Source of the DNA: Anaerolineae bacterium
GTDB lineage: Bacteria > Chloroflexota > Anaerolineae > JAFGEY01
Reading direction: 5' to 3'
DNA: 8,433 nucleotides
Assembly: GCA_016929205.1 (NCBI GenBank)
Contig: JAFGJF010000108.1
Location: 1 to 8,433, forward strand
The notes under the pieces were generated by a model. That model was given only the letters and a program-made list of their open reading frames with translations, searched no databases and had not been told where the DNA came from. This document shows positions 415-8,433 of this stretch, piece after piece. The position numbers were made by a program, and so were the translations under genes. Position 1 is the stretch's first letter. Each line of letters starts with the position of its first letter.

Positions 415-1339
415 CCCATTCTTTTGCCAGTCCCGAGACGACAGGATGCAGGACGCGATAATTTTGCAGATGAACGTCCGCGCTGCCAAATGGTTCGGGA
501 ATGGCCCATACATTCTGTTCTTCAAAAAGGCGCAGCCAGTTGGCGACCTGTTCGAGCGACGGAACTGCACCTTGCGCGACATCCTCGGCCAGAAACCCAT
601 TGTGGCTGTCGGTGCCGTTAAAGGGTGGCACGATCGTCGACAGGTGCAGGTGGCGGGTGTATGGGGCCAGTCGTTTTGTCGCTTTCATCGTCTGTGCCCA
701 GCTCATATCTGGGTCGGCGCAGGCGACCATCATTTCCGAGTAGAGGTGCCCGACGTCGATGCACAGGTCGATCCCCTGTTCGCCCAACCAGCGCATCACC
801 GGGTGGAGCAGCGCGCCGGGATCCACCGTCTGCCGGCGGTCGAACGGTTCGAACGAAAACAGATCGCGGCCGGACAGATTTTCGACGAGCAGGTGTACGC
901 CGCGCTGCCGGCCGTATTCGGCCAGGCGCGCGAGCCGGTCGCGTACGAGCCGGTTGCCGGTCTCAGGTGGTGTGCGATCGCCAACCAGCAGGTTGCGTCC
1001 GGGCACGATCTGCTGTGCCTGGTACGTGCCGGGATGGACGATGATCCCGTCCATTCCTTCGCCGGCGGCAACGTCGATCGTTTGCCGAAAGAGGGCGAGC
1101 GAGGCCTCGGACAGCGCGTTGTGCTGGGTGACGAGATTGGGCACAAACCCGTCTGCCAGCCGCGTCGACGAATGCAGCCGGGTGGCGACACCGTGTTCTC
1201 TCAGCCACGCCCACAGCGGGGCATACATATCCAGCCAATCCAGGTTGAAATAGATCTCGACGTGTCGAATGTTCAGGTCGTTGTCCAGCTTGGTCTGCCA
1301 GTCGTCCGGCCCACTTTTGATGCCCAGGTACACGATCAT
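404..1339 (-). CDS. sugar phosphate isomerase/epimerase-like TIM-barrel protein (AP-endonuclease-2 fold)
   Basis: A 311-residue protein of the usual length for the xylose-isomerase-like / endonuclease-IV-like TIM-barrel superfamily, whose members are mostly cytoplasmic, metal-dependent sugar isomerases and epimerases. The metal-ligand pattern is recognisable strand by strand: H102 in IIVHPGTY, E153 in LLVENLSG, D195 and H198 in CIDVGHLY, H230 and H232 in RHLHLS, D244 and H246 in GTDSHNGF, and E282 in AIPEPFG. Substrate cannot be told from sequence; a nuclease role is less likely but not excluded. The ATG at 1339 directly abuts a perfect AGGAGG (1340-1345), leaving no spacer. An in-frame GTG at 1333 has a 6-base spacer and gives an N-terminus VYLGIKSG, so GTG 1333 may be the true start. 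The gene is transcribed from the divergent promoter at 1362-1390 and is followed by the glycosyltransferase. Confidence 0.82.
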   Translation of the reverse strand: MIVYLGIKSGPDDWQTKLDNDLNIRHVEIYFNLDWLDMYAPLWAWLREHGVATRLHSSTRLADGFVPNLVTQHNALSEASLALFRQTIDVAAGEGMDGIIVHPGTYQAQQIVPGRNLLVGDRTPPETGNRLVRDRLARLAEYGRQRGVHLLVENLSGRDLFSFEPFDRRQTVDPGALLHPVMRWLGEQGIDLCIDVGHLYSEMMVACADPDMSWAQTMKATKRLAPYTRHLHLSTIVPPFNGTDSHNGFLAEDVAQGAVPSLEQVANWLRLFEEQNVWAIPEPFGSADVHLQNYRVLHPVVSGLAKEWGRG

Positions 1340-1345
1340 CCTCCT
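1340..1345 (-). promoter_or_regulatory. Shine-Dalgarno AGGAGG that favours a GTG start
   Basis: The reverse strand reads AAGGAGG-ATGATC-GTG-TAC. The full-strength AGGAGG touches the ATG at 1339 with zero spacing, whereas the GTG at 1333 lies six bases downstream, close to the optimum. This argues that translation of the isomerase-like gene begins at GTG 1333, two codons later than the longest reading. Confidence 0.65.
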
Positions 1346-1361
1346 TGAAAGAGCGATTATG

Positions 1362-1390
1362 ATTATAGCAATTTCTGGCTTTTGTGCCAG
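1362..1390 (-). promoter_or_regulatory. sigma-70-type promoter for isomerase/glycosyltransferase genes
   Basis: On the minus strand a -35-like CTGGCA (1390-1385, four of six consensus bases) is followed by 17 bases and a perfect -10 TATAAT (1367-1362). The -10 is preceded by TGC, which makes an extended -10. Predicted transcription begins near 1355, leaving a leader of about 16-22 bases that contains the AGGAGG. Confidence 0.65.
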
Positions 1391-1403
1391 TTGGGATTAT
1401 AAT
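1375..1403 (+). promoter_or_regulatory. sigma-70-type promoter for the sigma/anti-sigma genes
   Basis: On the plus strand a weak -35-like CTGGCT (1375-1380, three of six consensus bases) is followed by 17 bases and a perfect TATAAT (1398-1403). Predicted transcription begins near 1410, about 50 bases before the sigma gene. It overlaps the opposite-strand promoter, and both share the 1375-1390 segment. Nothing resembling the ECF-type GGAAC/CGTC pair at proper spacing is visible, so basal expression seems to rely on the housekeeping sigma factor. Confidence 0.6.
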
Positions 1404-1447
1404 GTGACCGAACCATCTTTTTGCTCGTCTTACTTGATAGCATACCG

Positions 1448-1454
1448 AAAGGAG
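1448..1454 (+). promoter_or_regulatory. Shine-Dalgarno that selects a TTG start
   Basis: AAAGGAG ends seven bases before TTG at 1462, while the nearby in-frame ATG at 1468 would be 13 bases away. The spacing supports TTG as initiator of the sigma gene. Confidence 0.6.
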
Positions 1455-1461
1455 TTCCCAT

Positions 1462-2055
1462 TTGTCGATGGACGAAATCGACCCCGATCACGCTTTTGAC
1501 ACCTTGTTCTGCGAATACGAGCAGCCGATTTGCTCTTATCTGGCACGGTTGACCGGCGACCTGGCGCGTGCGCAAGAGTTGACCCAGGAAACGTTTCTCC
1601 GTGCCTATCGCGCGCTACTGCGTGGTGCGCGCTGGGATAACCCGCGTGCGTGGCTGTATCGTGTCGCCTCGCGCTTGGCGACGGACGACTATCGCCGGAA
1701 AAAGCTGTTGCAATGGTTGCCGCTGTTATCCACCGATCCCGATCCGTTGCCACCCGTCGAAGCGCGCGTCTCTGAACGGCAGTCCGTGCAGCAGGCGCTG
1801 GATGCGCTCTCGCCCAAGTACCGCGTGCCACTGGTGCTGTATACAAGCCAGCACTATTCGGTCGGCGAGGTTGCCCGGATCTTGCACATCTCGGCCAGTG
1901 CGGTCAAGATGCGGCTGTCACGAGCGCGCGAGATGTTCCGCCGGGTGTATCGATTAGCAGAGCAAGCTCTTTCTCAGGACGACAAGCCGGCGTTGTGCAG
2001 GCCGACTTTGGCCGGGGGCGAGGTTGGCGGGCACCTGTTGGAGCAAGATCAATGA
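1462..2055 (+). CDS. ECF-type RNA polymerase sigma factor (RpoE/SigW-like)
   Basis: A 197-residue protein with the two-domain layout of ECF (group 4) sigma factors. Region 2 spans about residues 12-82 and includes the core-binding and -10-reading stretch DLARAQELTQETFLRAYRAL (33-52) followed by NPRAWLYRVASRLATDDYRR. Region 4 spans about 107-163, with ALDALSPKYRVPLVLY and a helix-turn-helix at 133-158 (YSVGEVARILHISASAVKMR then LSRARE) that reads the -35 element. There is no region 1 or 3, as expected for ECF factors. A tail of about 34 residues (164-197) follows region 4; its codons also contain the ribosome site of the next gene. The start is TTG 1462. The stop TGA (2053-2055) overlaps the ATG of the anti-sigma gene in ATGA, implying translational coupling. 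It should direct core RNA polymerase to a small regulon when released by its partner. Target promoters are not identifiable here. Confidence 0.93.
   Translation: MSMDEIDPDHAFDTLFCEYEQPICSYLARLTGDLARAQELTQETFLRAYRALLRGARWDNPRAWLYRVASRLATDDYRRKKLLQWLPLLSTDPDPLPPVEARVSERQSVQQALDALSPKYRVPLVLYTSQHYSVGEVARILHISASAVKMRLSRAREMFRRVYRLAEQALSQDDKPALCRPTLAGGEVGGHLLEQDQ
2040..2043 (+). promoter_or_regulatory. Shine-Dalgarno for the anti-sigma gene inside the sigma gene
   Basis: GGAG lies eight bases before ATG 2052. It supports starting the anti-sigma protein there rather than at 1995 (deep inside the sigma gene) or at ATG 2064. Confidence 0.55.
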
Positions 2056-4010
2056 ACGAGCATATGAGCGATCATACAAACGAACATACGTGTAAAACTA
2101 TACGGCCTCTTTTGGCCCTGCGGGCGGAAGCCTGGAGCGACGATCAACGCCGCCAGGTACAGGCTCATCTGCCAAATTGTGCCAGGTGCGCGGCTATGGC
2201 TCGTGACTATGCCGAACAGGACCGTCTTTTTGATACCGGCATGCCGAGAGTCGGACTCGCGGTGGAACAGCGGGCGTCCCTCCTTTCGCAAGTAGAACGA
2301 GAAAGGCGAGCGTACGACATGAGCAAAAAATGGCAGGTGGTTCTCAAATCCGTTGCCGGCGCTGTCGCGATTACGGTGCTGGTGTTTGTGCTAAACTGGA
2401 TATTCTCTGGGATGAGTGGACAAAAACAGGCGCAACCGGGCGCGCCTGCGCCAACGGCGACGATGACGGCGACGATTGCCCCATCGCCAACGCCCGTCTC
2501 TGCTGTGGTTGAAACGCCGGTAGCGGCTGTCTCTTTGTCCGGGCCTATCTTTGCCGAACAACTGGCTCTGGAATCGGATTTGCCTGCGATGGCATATATC
2601 CGTTCGGACCAAGCGCTTTCAACCATGGTATTTTCAATCACCCTGACTTGGCGAGCACTTGAGCCTGTGGAGGCCAACTGGTCCTATTTTATCCACCTGG
2701 TGGACGAGAATGACCAACTGGTATCGCAGCAAGACGGGCAGGGGGATTGGCCGGATCAAGTATGCAGCGAGGGACAGTCCAGTGAAGGATGTGTTTTGGT
2801 TACGGTACACCAGGTGTTCATCCCTAGCGATATCAAACCTGGCGAGTACACGCTCTTTGTGGGGTTGTACGATCCTGTTACAATGGTGCGGGCATCAGTG
2901 CGTGGCGGCGATGGTGCCAAATCAAGGGTGGCGATCGAGAGGCTTGTCATCTTGGGTTCGGATGAGGTGACGCCATCGATCGGCTTTGCCTACGGTATCC
3001 AGGCAGATATCTTGCTCGATCCAAACCGTACCGCTTCGATGGTCAGCGATCTTGGCCTGGGATGGTTCAAACAAGAGGTCCGCTGGGCCGAGATCGAGCC
3101 GCAAAAGGGGCAATACGATTGGGCGCAACTGGATGCCATCGTCAATGCCTGCGAGACTGCCGGGATCAGGCTGTTGCTAACCGTGATCGGATCGCCAGCC
3201 TGGGCACGCGATGGCGAGCCGGGAGTGGGGCCGCCGGATGATGTGCAGGATTTCGCGGACTTGATGGCGGCGATGGCTGCGCGCTATCGTGGACAGGTGT
3301 ATGCCTACGAGATCTGGCACAGCCAGAACCTGGCCTCCCACTGGGAGGGTGCGCCGCTCAGTCCCTACGATTACGTGCAACTGCTCCGTGCGGCATACCA
3401 GGCGGTCAAAGTTGCCGATCCGGATGCCCTGGTTGTCAGCGGTGGGCTGGAACCGACGCCGGTGAATGACGCCAATTGGGCGCTCGATAATCTTGAATAC
3501 CTCGAACAGATGTACGCCGATGGGTTGAAGGATCACTGCGACGCGGTTGGCGTGCACGCCGACGGGTACGCCAACCCACCGGACGTGTACTATCAAGGTG
3601 GCGATTTCGATCCCGCGCGGGAGGCTTTTGACGATCACCGCGTCTTTTTCTTCCGCAATACGATAGAAGACAGTTTCGCCGTGATGAAAGAAAATGGCGA
3701 TGGGGACAAGCCAATCTGGGTGACGCGTTTTGGCTGGGGCACGATCGATGGGCTCGGGATGGAGACACCGCAGAGCCAGGGCTTTTTCGATGACATCAAC
3801 GAGACGCAGCAGGCCGAGTATATCGTGAATGCGTTCAAGTGGGCGGAAGCGTTGGGCCACCTCGGCGGCATGTTCTTGGACAATCTCCAGGTGTCGCCAA
3901 CGCGCAGCGATTTTGGCCTGGCCTACAGCATTGTCCACCCCGACGGGACGCCGCGCCCGGCCTATACGGCGCTCCAGGAGATGATGGTCGCGCTGGACAC
4001 GACACCCTAG
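2052..4010 (+). CDS. membrane anti-sigma factor fused to a glycoside-hydrolase-like ectodomain with no catalytic glutamates
   Basis: A 652-residue protein in five parts. Residues 14-46 form a zinc-binding anti-sigma head with C14, H39, C43 and C46 (HLPNCARC, the HxxxCxxC signature), which should clamp the sigma factor in the cytoplasm. Residues 96-118 form one membrane span. Residues 122-160 are a Pro/Thr/Ala-rich linker. Residues 160-302 form a beta-sandwich (LTWRAL at 198-203, FIHLVDENDQLV, GEYTLFVGLYD), with C238 and C247 placed for a disulphide outside the cell. Residues 311-650 resemble a clan GH-A barrel (GH39/GH5-like): GFAYGIQADI, LGLGWFKQEVRWAEIEP, YDWAQLDAIV, EIWHSQNL, VVSGGLEP, DAVGVHADGY, PIWVTRFGW and GMFLDNL. 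The acid/base glutamate expected in a WNEPN-type motif is S424 (W422-H423-S424-Q425-N426), and the nucleophile expected in TEFGW is R559. It is therefore probably a binding or sensing pseudoenzyme. It is translationally coupled to the sigma gene. No autoproteolysis motif was recognised. Confidence 0.88.
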   Translation: MNEHMSDHTNEHTCKTIRPLLALRAEAWSDDQRRQVQAHLPNCARCAAMARDYAEQDRLFDTGMPRVGLAVEQRASLLSQVERERRAYDMSKKWQVVLKSVAGAVAITVLVFVLNWIFSGMSGQKQAQPGAPAPTATMTATIAPSPTPVSAVVETPVAAVSLSGPIFAEQLALESDLPAMAYIRSDQALSTMVFSITLTWRALEPVEANWSYFIHLVDENDQLVSQQDGQGDWPDQVCSEGQSSEGCVLVTVHQVFIPSDIKPGEYTLFVGLYDPVTMVRASVRGGDGAKSRVAIERLVILGSDEVTPSIGFAYGIQADILLDPNRTASMVSDLGLGWFKQEVRWAEIEPQKGQYDWAQLDAIVNACETAGIRLLLTVIGSPAWARDGEPGVGPPDDVQDFADLMAAMAARYRGQVYAYEIWHSQNLASHWEGAPLSPYDYVQLLRAAYQAVKVADPDALVVSGGLEPTPVNDANWALDNLEYLEQMYADGLKDHCDAVGVHADGYANPPDVYYQGGDFDPAREAFDDHRVFFFRNTIEDSFAVMKENGDGDKPIWVTRFGWGTIDGLGMETPQSQGFFDDINETQQAEYIVNAFKWAEALGHLGGMFLDNLQVSPTRSDFGLAYSIVHPDGTPRPAYTALQEMMVALDTTP

Positions 4011-4050
4011 AGCATACCTGCTGTGTTACAATCAAAGGAACAACGCATTC

Positions 4051-5213
4051 TTGCCCGATTTCAGAGTGGTAGATGAGACAGCCTCTGAACATACAACCAT
4101 CTGGCACCTGTTGACCCATATGAGCGGATGGGCAGGCGACCTGTTCGAAGACACGGGTTCTGGCGATGATGCGATGGCCAAGTATATGGCACTCATGGCC
4201 GATCCGGAACAATTTGCTCCCATTGGAACGGTCTGGTCGTACAACAATGCCGGCTTTGGCCTGGCAGGGCACTTGATCGAGCAAGTGACTGGTCAGCGCT
4301 TCGAAGAAGTGATGAAAGAACTGGTGTTCGGTCCCTTGTGCCTGGAACGTTGCCTCTTTGACCTTGGAGACGTGATCACGCATCGGTTCGCGGTGGGCAT
4401 GTCGGGGAAGGGCCAACGGCTCGTGTGCTGCGTCCGTGGTTGTTGCCACGGGCGCGTCATCCGGCTGGCGGCATCATATGCGACGTCAGGGAACTATTAC
4501 GCTATGCGTGTTTCCAGATGGGGAACGGTACGGCTACGGGTGGTGATGGAGGCGAGCGTGCCCAGGTACTTCAGCCAGAGACGATGGCGCTGATGCGCGC
4601 TCCGCAGGCGAGCAGGTGGAAAGAAAAGGAGCGGATCGGCTTATCGTGGTTTGTCGACGACACAGATGGCGTGCGCCAACTCTGGCACAGTGGAAGCAGA
4701 TTGGGGCAGATCTCGATATTGATCGTCATCCCCGAGCATCGTTTTGCGATAGCCGTCTTGACCAATGCGAACGCTGGCCGCGCTGTCATACAAGACGTGC
4801 GCCGCTGGGCCCTGGAGCACTATCTAGAACTGGAGACCCCCGAACCCGAACCTATCGAGGTTTCTGAGAAAGAACTGGCGGCTTATGTGGGATACTACAC
4901 ACGACCTTTGGCCGACATTGAGCTGTGTATGTTGTGCGGGCATCTCGTCGGGCAGATGGTTTATAAGCACGGATACCCCTCCTCGGCAAGTGCGCCACCA
5001 ATGCTGCCACCACCACCGATGGTCTTGGCGGCATCTGAAGAGGATCGCCTGCTGGTGATGAGGGGAGTCCGCAAAGGTGAGCAGGTTGAGGTCATCCGCA
5101 AACCAGATGGTACCATGGAACAGATCGAGCGATATCGCCATTCCCCGAGCATGGTTTATGCGTCAGCTTTACGGGAAGGCCGGGGTCTGTATGAGCAATC
5201 GCCCGCTGCCTGA
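4051..5213 (+). pseudogene. serine beta-lactamase-like hydrolase (class C fold), 5'-truncated and frameshifted
   Basis: The remnant begins in the middle of the fold at LPDFRVVDE, followed by LLTHMSGWAGD. In this family that segment comes after the SxxK catalytic motif, so about 100 N-terminal residues, including the nucleophilic serine and its lysine, are missing. The YxN motif survives (WSYNNAGFGLAGHLIEQVTG) and so does the third active-site box in HxG form (LWHSGSRLGQI). Reading switches frame near 4398: the first frame ends ...HRFAVG and the second resumes ...VGEGPTARVLRPWLLPRA. Adding one C after 4398 would restore AVGHVGEGPTARV. The C-terminal part includes YVGYYTRPLADIEL and a proline-rich PPMLPPPPM, typical of the extra domain in these hydrolases, and ends at TGA 5213. 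TTG 4051 has only a distant AAAGGA, and no other convincing start is visible. The 40 bases between 4010 and 4051 hold the presumed deletion junction. Confidence 0.85.
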
Positions 5214-5521: not shown

Positions 5522-8433
5522 ATGCCACAATTCGTCCATCTCCACGTGCACAGCGAATACTCGTTGCTCGACGGGTTGAGCCGGGTCAAGGAATTGGCCA
5601 AGTATGCCAAAAAGCTCGACATGCCAGCCATTGCCCTCACCGACCACGGCGTGATGTACGGCATCGTGGCCTTTGTCCGTGCCTGCCGCGACGCCGGCGT
5701 CAAACCGATCGTCGGCCTCGAGATCTATATCTCGCCGCGCCGCATGACCGATCGCGATCCGCAGAAGGATAGAACGCCCTATCACCTGGTGCTGCTGGCC
5801 GAGAACCAGGTCGGTTACCAGAACTTGCTCAAGATCGCCACCGCCGCCCAGTTGGAAGGATTCTATTACAAGCCGCGCGTGGACAAGGCGTTTTTGTCCC
5901 AACACGCCGAGGGGGTGATCGCTCTCAGTTCGTGCATGGCCGGCGAAGTGCCGCGCCTGTTGATGGACGGGCAGCGGGATAAGGCCGCGGAAGCGGCGAT
6001 GTGGTACCGGGACGCGTTTGGGCCTGACAATTTCTTTCTCGAGATCCAAAAACACGAGGGCATTCCCGAATCGGACGAGCTGAACCACAAGCTGGTCGAC
6101 CTGGCCCGCGAACTGGGGATAGGTATCGTCGCGACCAATGACGCGCACTATGTGCATGCCGAAGACGCCGACGCGCAGGACATCTTGCTCTGCATCCAAA
6201 CCGGCAAGCTGCGCGCCGACCCCGACCGGATGCGCATGACCGACAACGGTTACTATATCAAGAGCGCCGAAGAAATGGCGGCCATGTTTCCCGAATGGCC
6301 GGAGGCGTTGGAAAACACGGTGCGCATCGCCGAGCGCTGCGAGATCGAGGTCGAGAGCCCGGAATATCACCTGCCCGTTTTTCCTGTGCCGGAAGGGTAC
6401 ACGCCGCAGAGTTATCTGCGCGAGTTGACCGAGATAGGGTTCAAAAAGCGCTATCCCGGTGCCGAGCGGGCCAATGGTGATCCCAGGTGGCAGCGTTTGG
6501 ATTACGAGTTGGGCGTCATTCACGATATGGGGTTTGACACCTATTTTCTCATCTTGTGGGACCTGTGTGTATATGCGATCGAACAGGATATCTGGTGGAA
6601 CGTGCGTGGCTCGGCGGCCGGTTCGGTCGTTGCCTATTCGTTGGGGATTACCCGTCTCGACCCGTTGCCCAACAACCTGATCTTTGAGCGATTTCTAAAC
6701 CCCGAGCGGGTGACCATGCCCGACGTCGATCTGGACTATCCGGACGACCGCCGCCAGGAATTGATCGACTACACCAAGCTCAAATACGGCGTGGACAAGG
6801 TTTCCTACATCATCACCTTTGGAACGCTTGGCGCGCGCGCGGCGGTGCGCGACGTAGGGCGTGCACTGGACGTGCCGCTAAACGAAGTCGACACGATCGC
6901 CAAGATGGTCCCCAGCGGCCCCAAGGTCAAGCTCAGGGATGCCTTTGAGAATCCCGAGTTCAAGCAACTTTACGATTCAGAAGAATACGTAAAAGAATTG
7001 ATCGACACCGCGCTCAAGGTCGAGGGTGTCTCCCGGCACGCCAGCGTGCACGCCGCGGGCGTCGTCGTCACCGACAAGCCGATGGTCGAGTACATTCCGC
7101 TGGCCCGCGCGCCCAAGGGCAACACCGACATGACCGTCACCCAGTTCCCGATGAAGATCGTGGAAAGCATCGGTCTGCTCAAGCTCGACTTTTTGGGCCT
7201 GGCGACGCTCTCGCAGATGCGCAAGGCGGCTGAACTGATTGAAGCACGACATGGCGTCAAGTTTGATCTGGAAAACATTCCCATCGACGATCCGTGCATT
7301 TTCAATCTGTTGACCGATGGCGAAGTAGTGGGTGTGTTCCAGGTGGAAAGCGAGGGGATGAAAAAGACGCTGGCCCAGATGCGCCCGACTGGCCTGGATG
7401 ACATCATTGCCGTCGTTGCACTTTACCGCCCCGGCCCGATGCAGTTTATCGAGACCTATTGCAATCGTAAGCATGGCGAAGAAGACACGGCGTATATCCA
7501 TCCTGCACTAGAGCCGATCCTGGAAGAAACCTATGGCGTGATCGTCTACCAGGAGCAGATCATCCGTATCATGCGCGACCTGGCAGGCTATACCGGCGGC
7601 GAGGCCGACGTGATCCGCCGCGCGATTTCCAAAAAGGTCGATGCCCTCATTGCCGAACACAAGATCAAGTTCAGGAACGGTTGTGAGGCCAACGGCATTC
7701 CCGGCGAAAAAGCCGACGAGATCTATGAAGCGATCGCGTATTTTGCCAATTACGGCTTTAACAAGGCGCACGCCGCCGACTATGCCGTGATCACCTGCCA
7801 GACTGCCTACCTGAAGGCCAAGTACCCGGTCGAATATATGGCCGGGCTGCTCACCGTGGAAAAGAACAACCTGGACAAAGTCTCTGTCTTTTTGGGAGAA
7901 TGCCGCCGCCTGGGCATCCCCGTTTTGCCGCCCGACGTGAATCTGAGTGACGTAGATTTTGCGGTTGTCGACGCGACGCCGGACCAGCTAGAGATTCAAA
8001 AACACATCGACACGACCTGTGCCTTGAGCAATGGCGCGATTCGCTTTGGCCTGGGCGGGATCAAGAACGTCAGTTCGACAGCCGTACAAGAGATCATCTG
8101 TGCCCGGGAGCAGGGGGGTGTCTTTGTCAGCCTGGATGACTTTTGTGAGCGCGTGGATTTGCGCAAGCTCAACCGGCGCGTGCTGGAATGTTTGATCAAG
8201 GTCGGTACCCTGGATTGTTTTGGCACGCGAGCCCAGCTTTTGGCCGTTGTCGACCAGATGTTGTCGGTCAGCGCCCAGATCCACTATGCAGAAGAGATCG
8301 GGCAGATGACCATGTTCGACTTGATGGGCGGGGGATCGACCGCGCACAATAGTATTGTGCTGCCCAAGGACGTCCCGCCGGTGTCAAACAAGGAAAAATT
8401 GGGTTGGGAAAAGGAACTGGTTGGCTTTTACGT
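5522..8433 (+). CDS. dnaE: DNA polymerase III alpha subunit (DnaE), 3' end cut by window
   Basis: The replicative polymerase catalytic subunit; 970 complete codons are visible of a protein usually about 1150-1200 residues long. The PHP domain leads with HLHVHSEYSLLDG (6-18), D41-H42 in TDHG, E67, H88, C138 and D207-H209 (TNDAHY), so the usual metal-ligand positions appear retained. The palm carries RGSAAGSVVAYSLGIT, then the aspartates D401 and D403 in PDVDLD, and D556 in KLDFLGL, matching the catalytic triad of the C-family polymerases. YRPGPMQF, the YQEQIIRIMRDLAGYTGG stretch and FNKAHAADYA follow in the fingers, and a helix-hairpin-helix-like segment, LNRRVLECLIKVGTLD, follows near residue 885. 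The start ATG 5522 has AGGAG five bases upstream. No intein interrupts the visible part. The clamp-binding and OB-fold regions lie beyond the edge. Confidence 0.97.
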   Translation, partial: MPQFVHLHVHSEYSLLDGLSRVKELAKYAKKLDMPAIALTDHGVMYGIVAFVRACRDAGVKPIVGLEIYISPRRMTDRDPQKDRTPYHLVLLAENQVGYQNLLKIATAAQLEGFYYKPRVDKAFLSQHAEGVIALSSCMAGEVPRLLMDGQRDKAAEAAMWYRDAFGPDNFFLEIQKHEGIPESDELNHKLVDLARELGIGIVATNDAHYVHAEDADAQDILLCIQTGKLRADPDRMRMTDNGYYIKSAEEMAAMFPEWPEALENTVRIAERCEIEVESPEYHLPVFPVPEGYTPQSYLRELTEIGFKKRYPGAERANGDPRWQRLDYELGVIHDMGFDTYFLILWDLCVYAIEQDIWWNVRGSAAGSVVAYSLGITRLDPLPNNLIFERFLNPERVTMPDVDLDYPDDRRQELIDYTKLKYGVDKVSYIITFGTLGARAAVRDVGRALDVPLNEVDTIAKMVPSGPKVKLRDAFENPEFKQLYDSEEYVKELIDTALKVEGVSRHASVHAAGVVVTDKPMVEYIPLARAPKGNTDMTVTQFPMKIVESIGLLKLDFLGLATLSQMRKAAELIEARHGVKFDLENIPIDDPCIFNLLTDGEVVGVFQVESEGMKKTLAQMRPTGLDDIIAVVALYRPGPMQFIETYCNRKHGEEDTAYIHPALEPILEETYGVIVYQEQIIRIMRDLAGYTGGEADVIRRAISKKVDALIAEHKIKFRNGCEANGIPGEKADEIYEAIAYFANYGFNKAHAADYAVITCQTAYLKAKYPVEYMAGLLTVEKNNLDKVSVFLGECRRLGIPVLPPDVNLSDVDFAVVDATPDQLEIQKHIDTTCALSNGAIRFGLGGIKNVSSTAVQEIICAREQGGVFVSLDDFCERVDLRKLNRRVLECLIKVGTLDCFGTRAQLLAVVDQMLSVSAQIHYAEEIGQMTMFDLMGGGSTAHNSIVLPKDVPPVSNKEKLGWEKELVGFY

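Follow-up and report, generated by a model that had tools for sequence, protein, structure and literature searches.

The window analyzed here, an 8,433-nucleotide stretch of contig JAFGJF010000108.1, encodes on its + strand an anti-sigma factor of 652 aa with an extracellular pseudo-glycosidase (2052..4010, an open frame with an ATG start), whose gene overlaps that of a sigma factor of the extracytoplasmic function (ECF) type. Its outer part has the predicted fold of a PslG/GH39-like barrel from which the catalytic set is lost, and, among the proteins in hand, the barrels fused in this way to anti-sigma domains form a single clade. We consider it probable that a retired glycoside hydrolase serves here as the ligand receptor of a one-span membrane anti-sigma factor. 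The sensing role suggested in the original prediction, which was made from the letters of the window, likely holds in this form, with the window's glycosidase disarmed.

Anatomy of the anti-sigma factor and its locus

The protein begins with a zinc anti-sigma domain (residues 1-62, 2052..2237; all features of this protein lie on the + strand), which harbors the motif C14-x24-H39-x3-C43-x2-C46 and predicted helices at residues 6-21, 30-42, and 44-61. A fourth predicted helix merges into the single membrane span (residues 71-121, 2262..2414; hydropathy peak from residue 96), and in the sequence positive charges flank the membrane helix on its N-terminal side. Beyond a Pro/Thr/Ala linker (residues 122-160, 2415..2531), recognized by sequence and of low model confidence, lie a beta-sandwich (residues 161-302, 2532..2957), with seven strands predicted between 179 and 302 at moderate to low confidence, and a catalytically disarmed PslG/GH39-like (beta/alpha)8 barrel (residues 310-650, 2979..4001), assigned by model, Protein Data Bank (PDB) comparison and alignment. 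The AlphaFold model of the whole protein, built on 66 sequences, has a mean pLDDT of 78.4; by ten-residue block, values are 78-94 over residues 11-60 and 80-98 over the barrel, except for 63 at 611-620, while the linker and parts of the beta-sandwich are poorly modelled. In the PDB comparison, the list of which covers residues 309-651 only, the top ranks go to PslG entries and to 5jvk, a GH39 entry, and the closest sequence in the alignment is likewise PslG-type. No Pfam model matches the beta-sandwich. Among the proteins in hand, residues 161-302 match only P0003, P0067, P0068, P0073, and P0074, and the domain resembles by sequence one near the C termini of four other proteins, including P0067, a PMT-type glycosyltransferase according to Pfam.

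The sigma factor gene (1462..2055, + strand) starts with a TTG at 1462, 7 nt after a ribosome site read by eye (AAAGGAG, 1448-1454), or alternatively with an ATG at 1468. Its stop codon, TGA at 2053-2055, shares four bases, ATGA, with the start of the anti-sigma gene. The product matches Sigma70_r2 (1.2e-12) and Sigma70_r4_2 (1.3e-12) in Pfam and passes the cut-off of the NCBIfam model TIGR02937, sigma70-ECF. The original prediction had named the zinc residues, the span, the Pro/Thr linker, the beta-sandwich, and the barrel within 652 aa, as well as an ATG overlapping the stop of an ECF sigma gene and a GH-A fold for the barrel; each of these elements was recovered.

Catalytic site and family of the barrel

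We compared the barrel with PslG, using the residue roles given for its catalysis and sugar binding (PMC7237758, PMC11912335; these and the other papers cited below are drawn on for the parts of them that were available). At the places where clan GH-A enzymes carry two catalytic Glu and an Asn before the first, the window protein has H423-S424 (3318..3323), replacing the Asn-Glu pair that bears the acid/base (PslG N164-E165), and R559 (3726..3728), at the nucleophile place (PslG E276). D610 (3879..3881) stands where an aromatic residue stacks on the −1 sugar (PslG F319), a position held by Trp in 96% of intact relatives. Two further residues deviate: H430 (3339..3341), at a position where Glu occurs in 97% of the 141 intact relatives and in 0/14 of the anti-sigma family, and F621 (3912..3914), which is Glu in 91% of intact relatives and aligns, in a weakly aligned region, near the two PslG residues that hold the −1 sugar, R331 and D332. 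Judged from its sequence, the barrel is most likely a fold relative of the PslG/GH39-like enzymes of clan GH-A and not an active member, and because it is most likely disarmed, "carbohydrate-sensing" would refer to presumed binding, not cleavage. An ordinary active GH39 or GH42 ectodomain is ruled out by the absence of the catalytic residues. The original prediction of a glycosidase-like sensor therefore stands as to the ectodomain but not as to a working glycosidase, the replacement of H423, S424, and R559 having gone unnoticed.

Three protein searches, each scoring about 8,000 candidates, listed 184 proteins beside the window's own, two of these lists being the best 120 of 508 and the best 120 of 513. 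The full zinc motif occurs within the first 90 residues in 14 of the 186 proteins in hand, the window's included, and all 14 carry the barrel, so that an architecture first taken to lack a known family is not a one-off; the third search added no further anti-sigma member among its best 120 of 513. P0009, P0093, and P0123 lack an N terminus, yet the tree places them among the 14, and P0009 retains the end of the head profile (8e-9). Once seven of 185 rows had been excluded (E above 1e-20 or gaps ≥40%: P0045, P0067, P0068, P0069, P0073, P0074, P0075), 178 rows were analyzed, comprising the 14 anti-sigma proteins, the three truncated ones, and 161 others, of which 141 retain the Asn-Glu pair and the nucleophile. 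Within the 14, the Asn of the pair is never kept and at least one Glu is lost in 11. The substitutes in the family are varied, with HS, PE, EG, SG, HE, DE, YG, or HN for Asn-Glu and R, H, K, or Q for the nucleophile.

To locate the replacements we used the 77 columns in which ≥90% of the 141 intact rows agree. The columns most often replaced among the 14 are N423 (14), E430 (14), E621 (13), E424 (10), and W610 (10). At the four sites preset from PslG (423, 424, 559, and 610), 38 of 56 cells are replaced; with E430 and E621, which were chosen after inspection of the data, the count is 65 of 84, compared with 88 of 994 for the 71 remaining columns. Twenty sister rows show 0/120 replacements at the six sites and 54/1420 at the other columns, a comparison that flatters the sisters, as they are among the rows defining the consensus. 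W338, W345, W384, W422, Y441, H502, W556, and W562, conserved aromatic or His residues of the intact barrels, are kept in 14/14.

A tree was built without the catalytic columns from 77 rows, namely 17 family rows and the 60 of 72 others remaining after thinning at 80% identity. The family rows form one clade (support 100/100), which rules out multiple origins among the anti-sigma barrels in hand. This clade is nested in one of 37 rows whose other 20 members are all intact, and since these sister barrels are intact, loss is the simple reading, even though change counts carry no direction. Over the 17 rows, at least three changes are required for the state "both Glu," three for the nucleophile, and three for the acid/base. 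The letters at the Asn place require at least six, and Asn versus not-Asn only one; because P0093 alone holds Asn, the Asn may have been lost once and regained in P0093, or lost many times. Branches are longer in the family than in its sisters (mean 0.68 vs. 0.46 changes per site). Identity is 63% for the barrel and 54% for the zinc domain (91 pairs each), and 39% for the membrane helix.

Other barrel proteins were also recorded. P0047, P0049, P0050, P0051, P0053, P0054, P0057, P0058, P0059, and P0062 are O-antigen-ligase (PF04932) proteins with an N-terminal barrel; the Asn of the pair is replaced in 10/10, and only P0049 retains both Glu. The LysM-linked barrels of P0036, P0038, P0039, P0040, P0041, P0043, and P0044 carry DAPN or DPPN and VKFGW and are probably a further inactive group. 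Within the anti-sigma family, P0005 and P0009 have long additional C-terminal stretches; no Pfam domain was named for that of P0005, and P0009 is listed without Pfam domains.

The zinc head and its sigma factor

The spacing C-x24-H-x3-C-x2-C is identical in 14/14 proteins with zinc head and barrel, with C, H, C, and C invariant in the alignment, and this fixed spacing rules out a zinc head by chance. Pfam zf-HC2 (E 0.065) and the NCBIfam model "antisigma" (6.3e-5) both fall under their cut-offs on the head, the assignment of which relies on the motif, the latter sub-cut-off match, and the family alignment. The head profile gave five weak matches in the PDB; the only anti-sigma chains among them are those of RsiW and ChrR (E 0.14, 0.22, 0.24), and the other two matches fall on the membrane helix. 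RsiW and ChrR, of the zinc class I, share H-x3-C-x2-C with the window head; to our knowledge, neither has a glycosidase ectodomain. In class I anti-sigma domains, Hx3Cx2C spans helices 2 and 3 (PMC7406223), and in the window protein H39-x3-C43-x2-C46 lies over the predicted helices 30-42 and 44-61, with an ECF sigma gene adjoining through the ATGA overlap, as is characteristic of this class. The same study reports that 72% of the ECFs of Chloroflexi are associated with such domains (PMC7406223). The zinc domain would bind the neighboring ECF sigma factor.

We then searched for the head profile in 396 genomes from the class of G001, the genome closest to the window by DnaE, and in 400 from the phylum, and fetched 42 loci with flanks of about 1.5 kb or less. 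The barrel hidden Markov model matched none of these 42 loci, which does not imply absence elsewhere, weaker heads having been left unopened and more genomes existing. The nearest whole-genome head, in G418 (7.8e-34), bears a PD40 propeller as its outer part; the head protein of G350, of 167 aa, has almost no outer part, and the head of G015 is in a long protein with several hydrophobic stretches. The sigma stop and the head ATG overlap as ATGA in all three, and the sigma factor beside the G418 head is the closest to that of the window among the loci checked (2.6e-65). A sigma gene adjoins the head in 25/30 loci of the first head search and 11/12 new loci of the second, counts in which most heads are distant and the short flank may explain some misses. 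As the nearest heads carry other outer parts yet adjoin sigma genes, the sigma/anti-sigma core appears to swap outer sensors, the disarmed barrel being one of them. In the order of G350 (48 genomes), the only head beyond E 1e-10 is that of G350 itself; G001's family and order, like G418's order and class, are each represented by one genome. Scanning contigs with P0001 turned up no relative, whereas A1 found three relatives of the barrel that lack a zinc head; viral contigs yielded a single match, partial and distant. Further zinc anti-sigma heads were seen at L044 893-4291, L047 7570-9732, and L064 8902-10269, where the outer part is a BNR, DUF4232, or PD40 propeller domain, and P0075 (747 aa) joins an Hx3Cx2C head (head profile 2.3e-8) to a PF00496 solute-binding domain.

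Judging by DnaE (5522-8431), the window appears to derive from an Anaerolineae relative: this protein shares 79% identity with its counterpart in G001 and 62% with the runner-up among the 396 genomes searched. A pattern scan found no + strand sigma-70-type site in 1300-4200. Divergent from the sigma gene lies a xylose-isomerase-like TIM barrel gene (PF01261; 404-1339, − strand), a possible member of the sigma factor's regulon, and at 3-509 (− strand) a PMT-type glycosyltransferase (PF13231) begins and continues beyond the window edge. Downstream, a PF00144 beta-lactamase-like serine hydrolase (4051-5213, + strand) is split over two overlapping frames that cover consecutive model parts, 89-201 and 208-319, the first 88 model positions being unmatched; it looks like a broken gene.

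A proposed sensing switch, its alternatives and its precedents

Based on this anatomy, we propose that the cytoplasmic zinc domain would at rest hold the ECF sigma factor of the same operon, while outside the PslG/GH39-like barrel would bind a glycan, or lose one. The barrel would no longer hydrolyze it, because it lacks the acid/base and the Asn preceding it, the nucleophile, and the residue that stacks on the −1 sugar. Relayed via the linker, the change in ligand would prompt cleavage by a site-1 protease close to the membrane and then by a site-2 (M50-type) protease in the span, and the released sigma factor would transcribe its regulon. As for the ligand, 13 of 50 hand-picked barrel relatives also match GH18, 7 match LysM, and 7 match SH3_3, and an M23 domain with HxxxD and HxH present lies at the C-terminal end of 4/14 anti-sigma proteins. 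These neighbors weakly suggest a ligand related to the cell envelope, and because of them our guess is a cell-envelope or matrix glycan; domains of the LysM, SH3_3, GH18, and M23 types are, against this pointer, common in secreted proteins. P0168, in which a Ser/Thr protein kinase is joined to a barrel from this family with intact catalytic letters (WNEQN/TEFGW), is a second sign of the barrel's use in signaling.

Several observations weigh against the receptor reading. M50 proteases occur in 4/4 related genomes, but also in 14/14 control genomes. An ECF-type promoter pattern is found at chance level (8 matches in the window vs. 7.2 expected). For the head by itself, no fold match came up (best E 2.6, from a single-sequence model with pLDDT 73), so this search lent no support to the sigma-binding fold expected for residues 1-60, although four helices are predicted from the head into the span. 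The head-profile search found no such head in G001. Disarmament extends beyond anti-sigma proteins, since 20 of the 161 other rows are altered (ten O-antigen-ligase fusions, seven LysM-linked, and three others). Finally, P0076, P0079, and P0080 retain both Glu, so some members may still cut, and the truncated P0093 has WNEQN and TEFGW whole. Because these four keep Glu, we claim disarmament for the window protein and, from the alignment, only a strong trend with exceptions across the family.

The same four proteins, together with the good conservation of the barrel, are what speaks for a barrel that has stayed enzymatic, through a changed chemistry or through catalytic residues now placed elsewhere, on an anti-sigma factor sensing its own product or turnover. 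We find this improbable given that the two Glu of the window protein are Ser and Arg and its −1 aromatic is Asp, that the Asn of the pair is absent from the whole family of 14, and that even P0093 deviates at E430, W610, and E621. That the barrel instead receives a protein, such as a secreted hydrolase or an envelope protein, is unlikely, if somewhat less so: there is the precedent of RsiV and lysozyme (PMC5014341), and the former sugar site may have lost its affinity for sugar now that its −1 site is dismantled. No partner protein turned up, in searches none of which was aimed at one, and the eight aromatic or His residues kept throughout the family, for which a location in the cleft is not implied, argue for the glycan.

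The longer branches of the family, and the other outer parts, or almost none, on related zinc heads, would suit a barrel that acts as an inert spacer at the surface or is a one-time enzyme in decay, with the linker, the span, or another protein signaling. This has little probability in our view, as the barrel is more conserved than the zinc domain and the replacements concentrate at the active site, including the preset positions. Least credible, and very improbable, is that the protein is no anti-sigma factor for the neighboring sigma gene, through a wrong partner or a zinc motif with another purpose; the sub-cut-off zf-HC2 score and the head without a fold match allow for it, against the motif spacing fixed across the family, its position over helices 2 and 3 (PMC7406223), the gene overlap, and the nearest head elsewhere adjoining the nearest sigma factor. 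The receptor reading has an extension that we regard as tentative and rather doubtful, in which an Anaerolineae-type lineage acquired a glycosidase a single time as the ectodomain of an anti-sigma factor, with disarmament following repeatedly and by various routes, since sensing needs binding without cutting. With M23 in four members, the cell's own envelope glycan would be watched and maybe trimmed, and removal of the active site would be a general rule for turning enzymes into receptors.

We found no description of a zinc anti-sigma factor with a GH39-like ectodomain in the titles and abstract starts of the open literature, subscription papers being mostly outside. Among the nearest systems is RsgI6/SigI6 of Clostridium (Acetivibrio) thermocellum, in which a one-span anti-sigma factor adjoining its sigma gene likewise bears a glycosidase barrel outside, a GH10 ectodomain that has very low activity and binds xylan and cellulose (PMC4711584). 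It differs by SigI instead of ECF, an RsgI N-terminal domain instead of zinc, and GH10 instead of PslG/GH39-like, and no RsgI model is among the Pfam and NCBIfam matches of the window protein up to E 1. Processing of RsgI proteins involves autocleavage, in most of them within a periplasmic domain, as well as RseP and ClpXP (PMC12203970). ECF52 (SCO4117, Streptomyces) contains the same parts, with an ECF sigma factor, zinc finger, span, Pro-rich stretch, and outer carbohydrate-binding domain (PMC5826349, PMC8999054), but in a single polypeptide rather than two overlapping genes, with a carbohydrate-binding module and not a glycosidase barrel, and it is described as exclusive to Actinobacteria. 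RsiV/SigV of Bacillus subtilis shares an anti-sigma factor that is a direct receptor with ligand-triggered proteolysis (PMC5014341), and differs in its ligand, lysozyme, and its DUF4163/DUF3298 ectodomain. PslG of Pseudomonas aeruginosa (GH39) and the Anaerolineae-type WNEQN/TEFGW relatives have the same barrel fold and the closest sequences, with the catalytic pair present and no anti-sigma domain. The idea of an independently built switch thus holds for the ECF and zinc chassis, which is other than RsgI/SigI, and less for its isolation, RsgI6 and ECF52 being near.

Taken together, the intact sister barrels and the one altered anti-sigma clade, with at least three state changes at the two glutamates, provide a natural series from enzyme to receptor. 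The outer domains of Chloroflexota-type anti-sigma factors seem to be exchanged on a related head, from propeller and BNR to almost none and the barrel. If the receptor reading is true, glycan-sensing sigma switches would exist on an ECF/zinc chassis in Chloroflexota-type bacteria as well as in the SigI/RsgI form known from cellulolytic clostridia, and if a ligand is found, these barrels would offer ready-made glycan biosensors with a transcriptional output.
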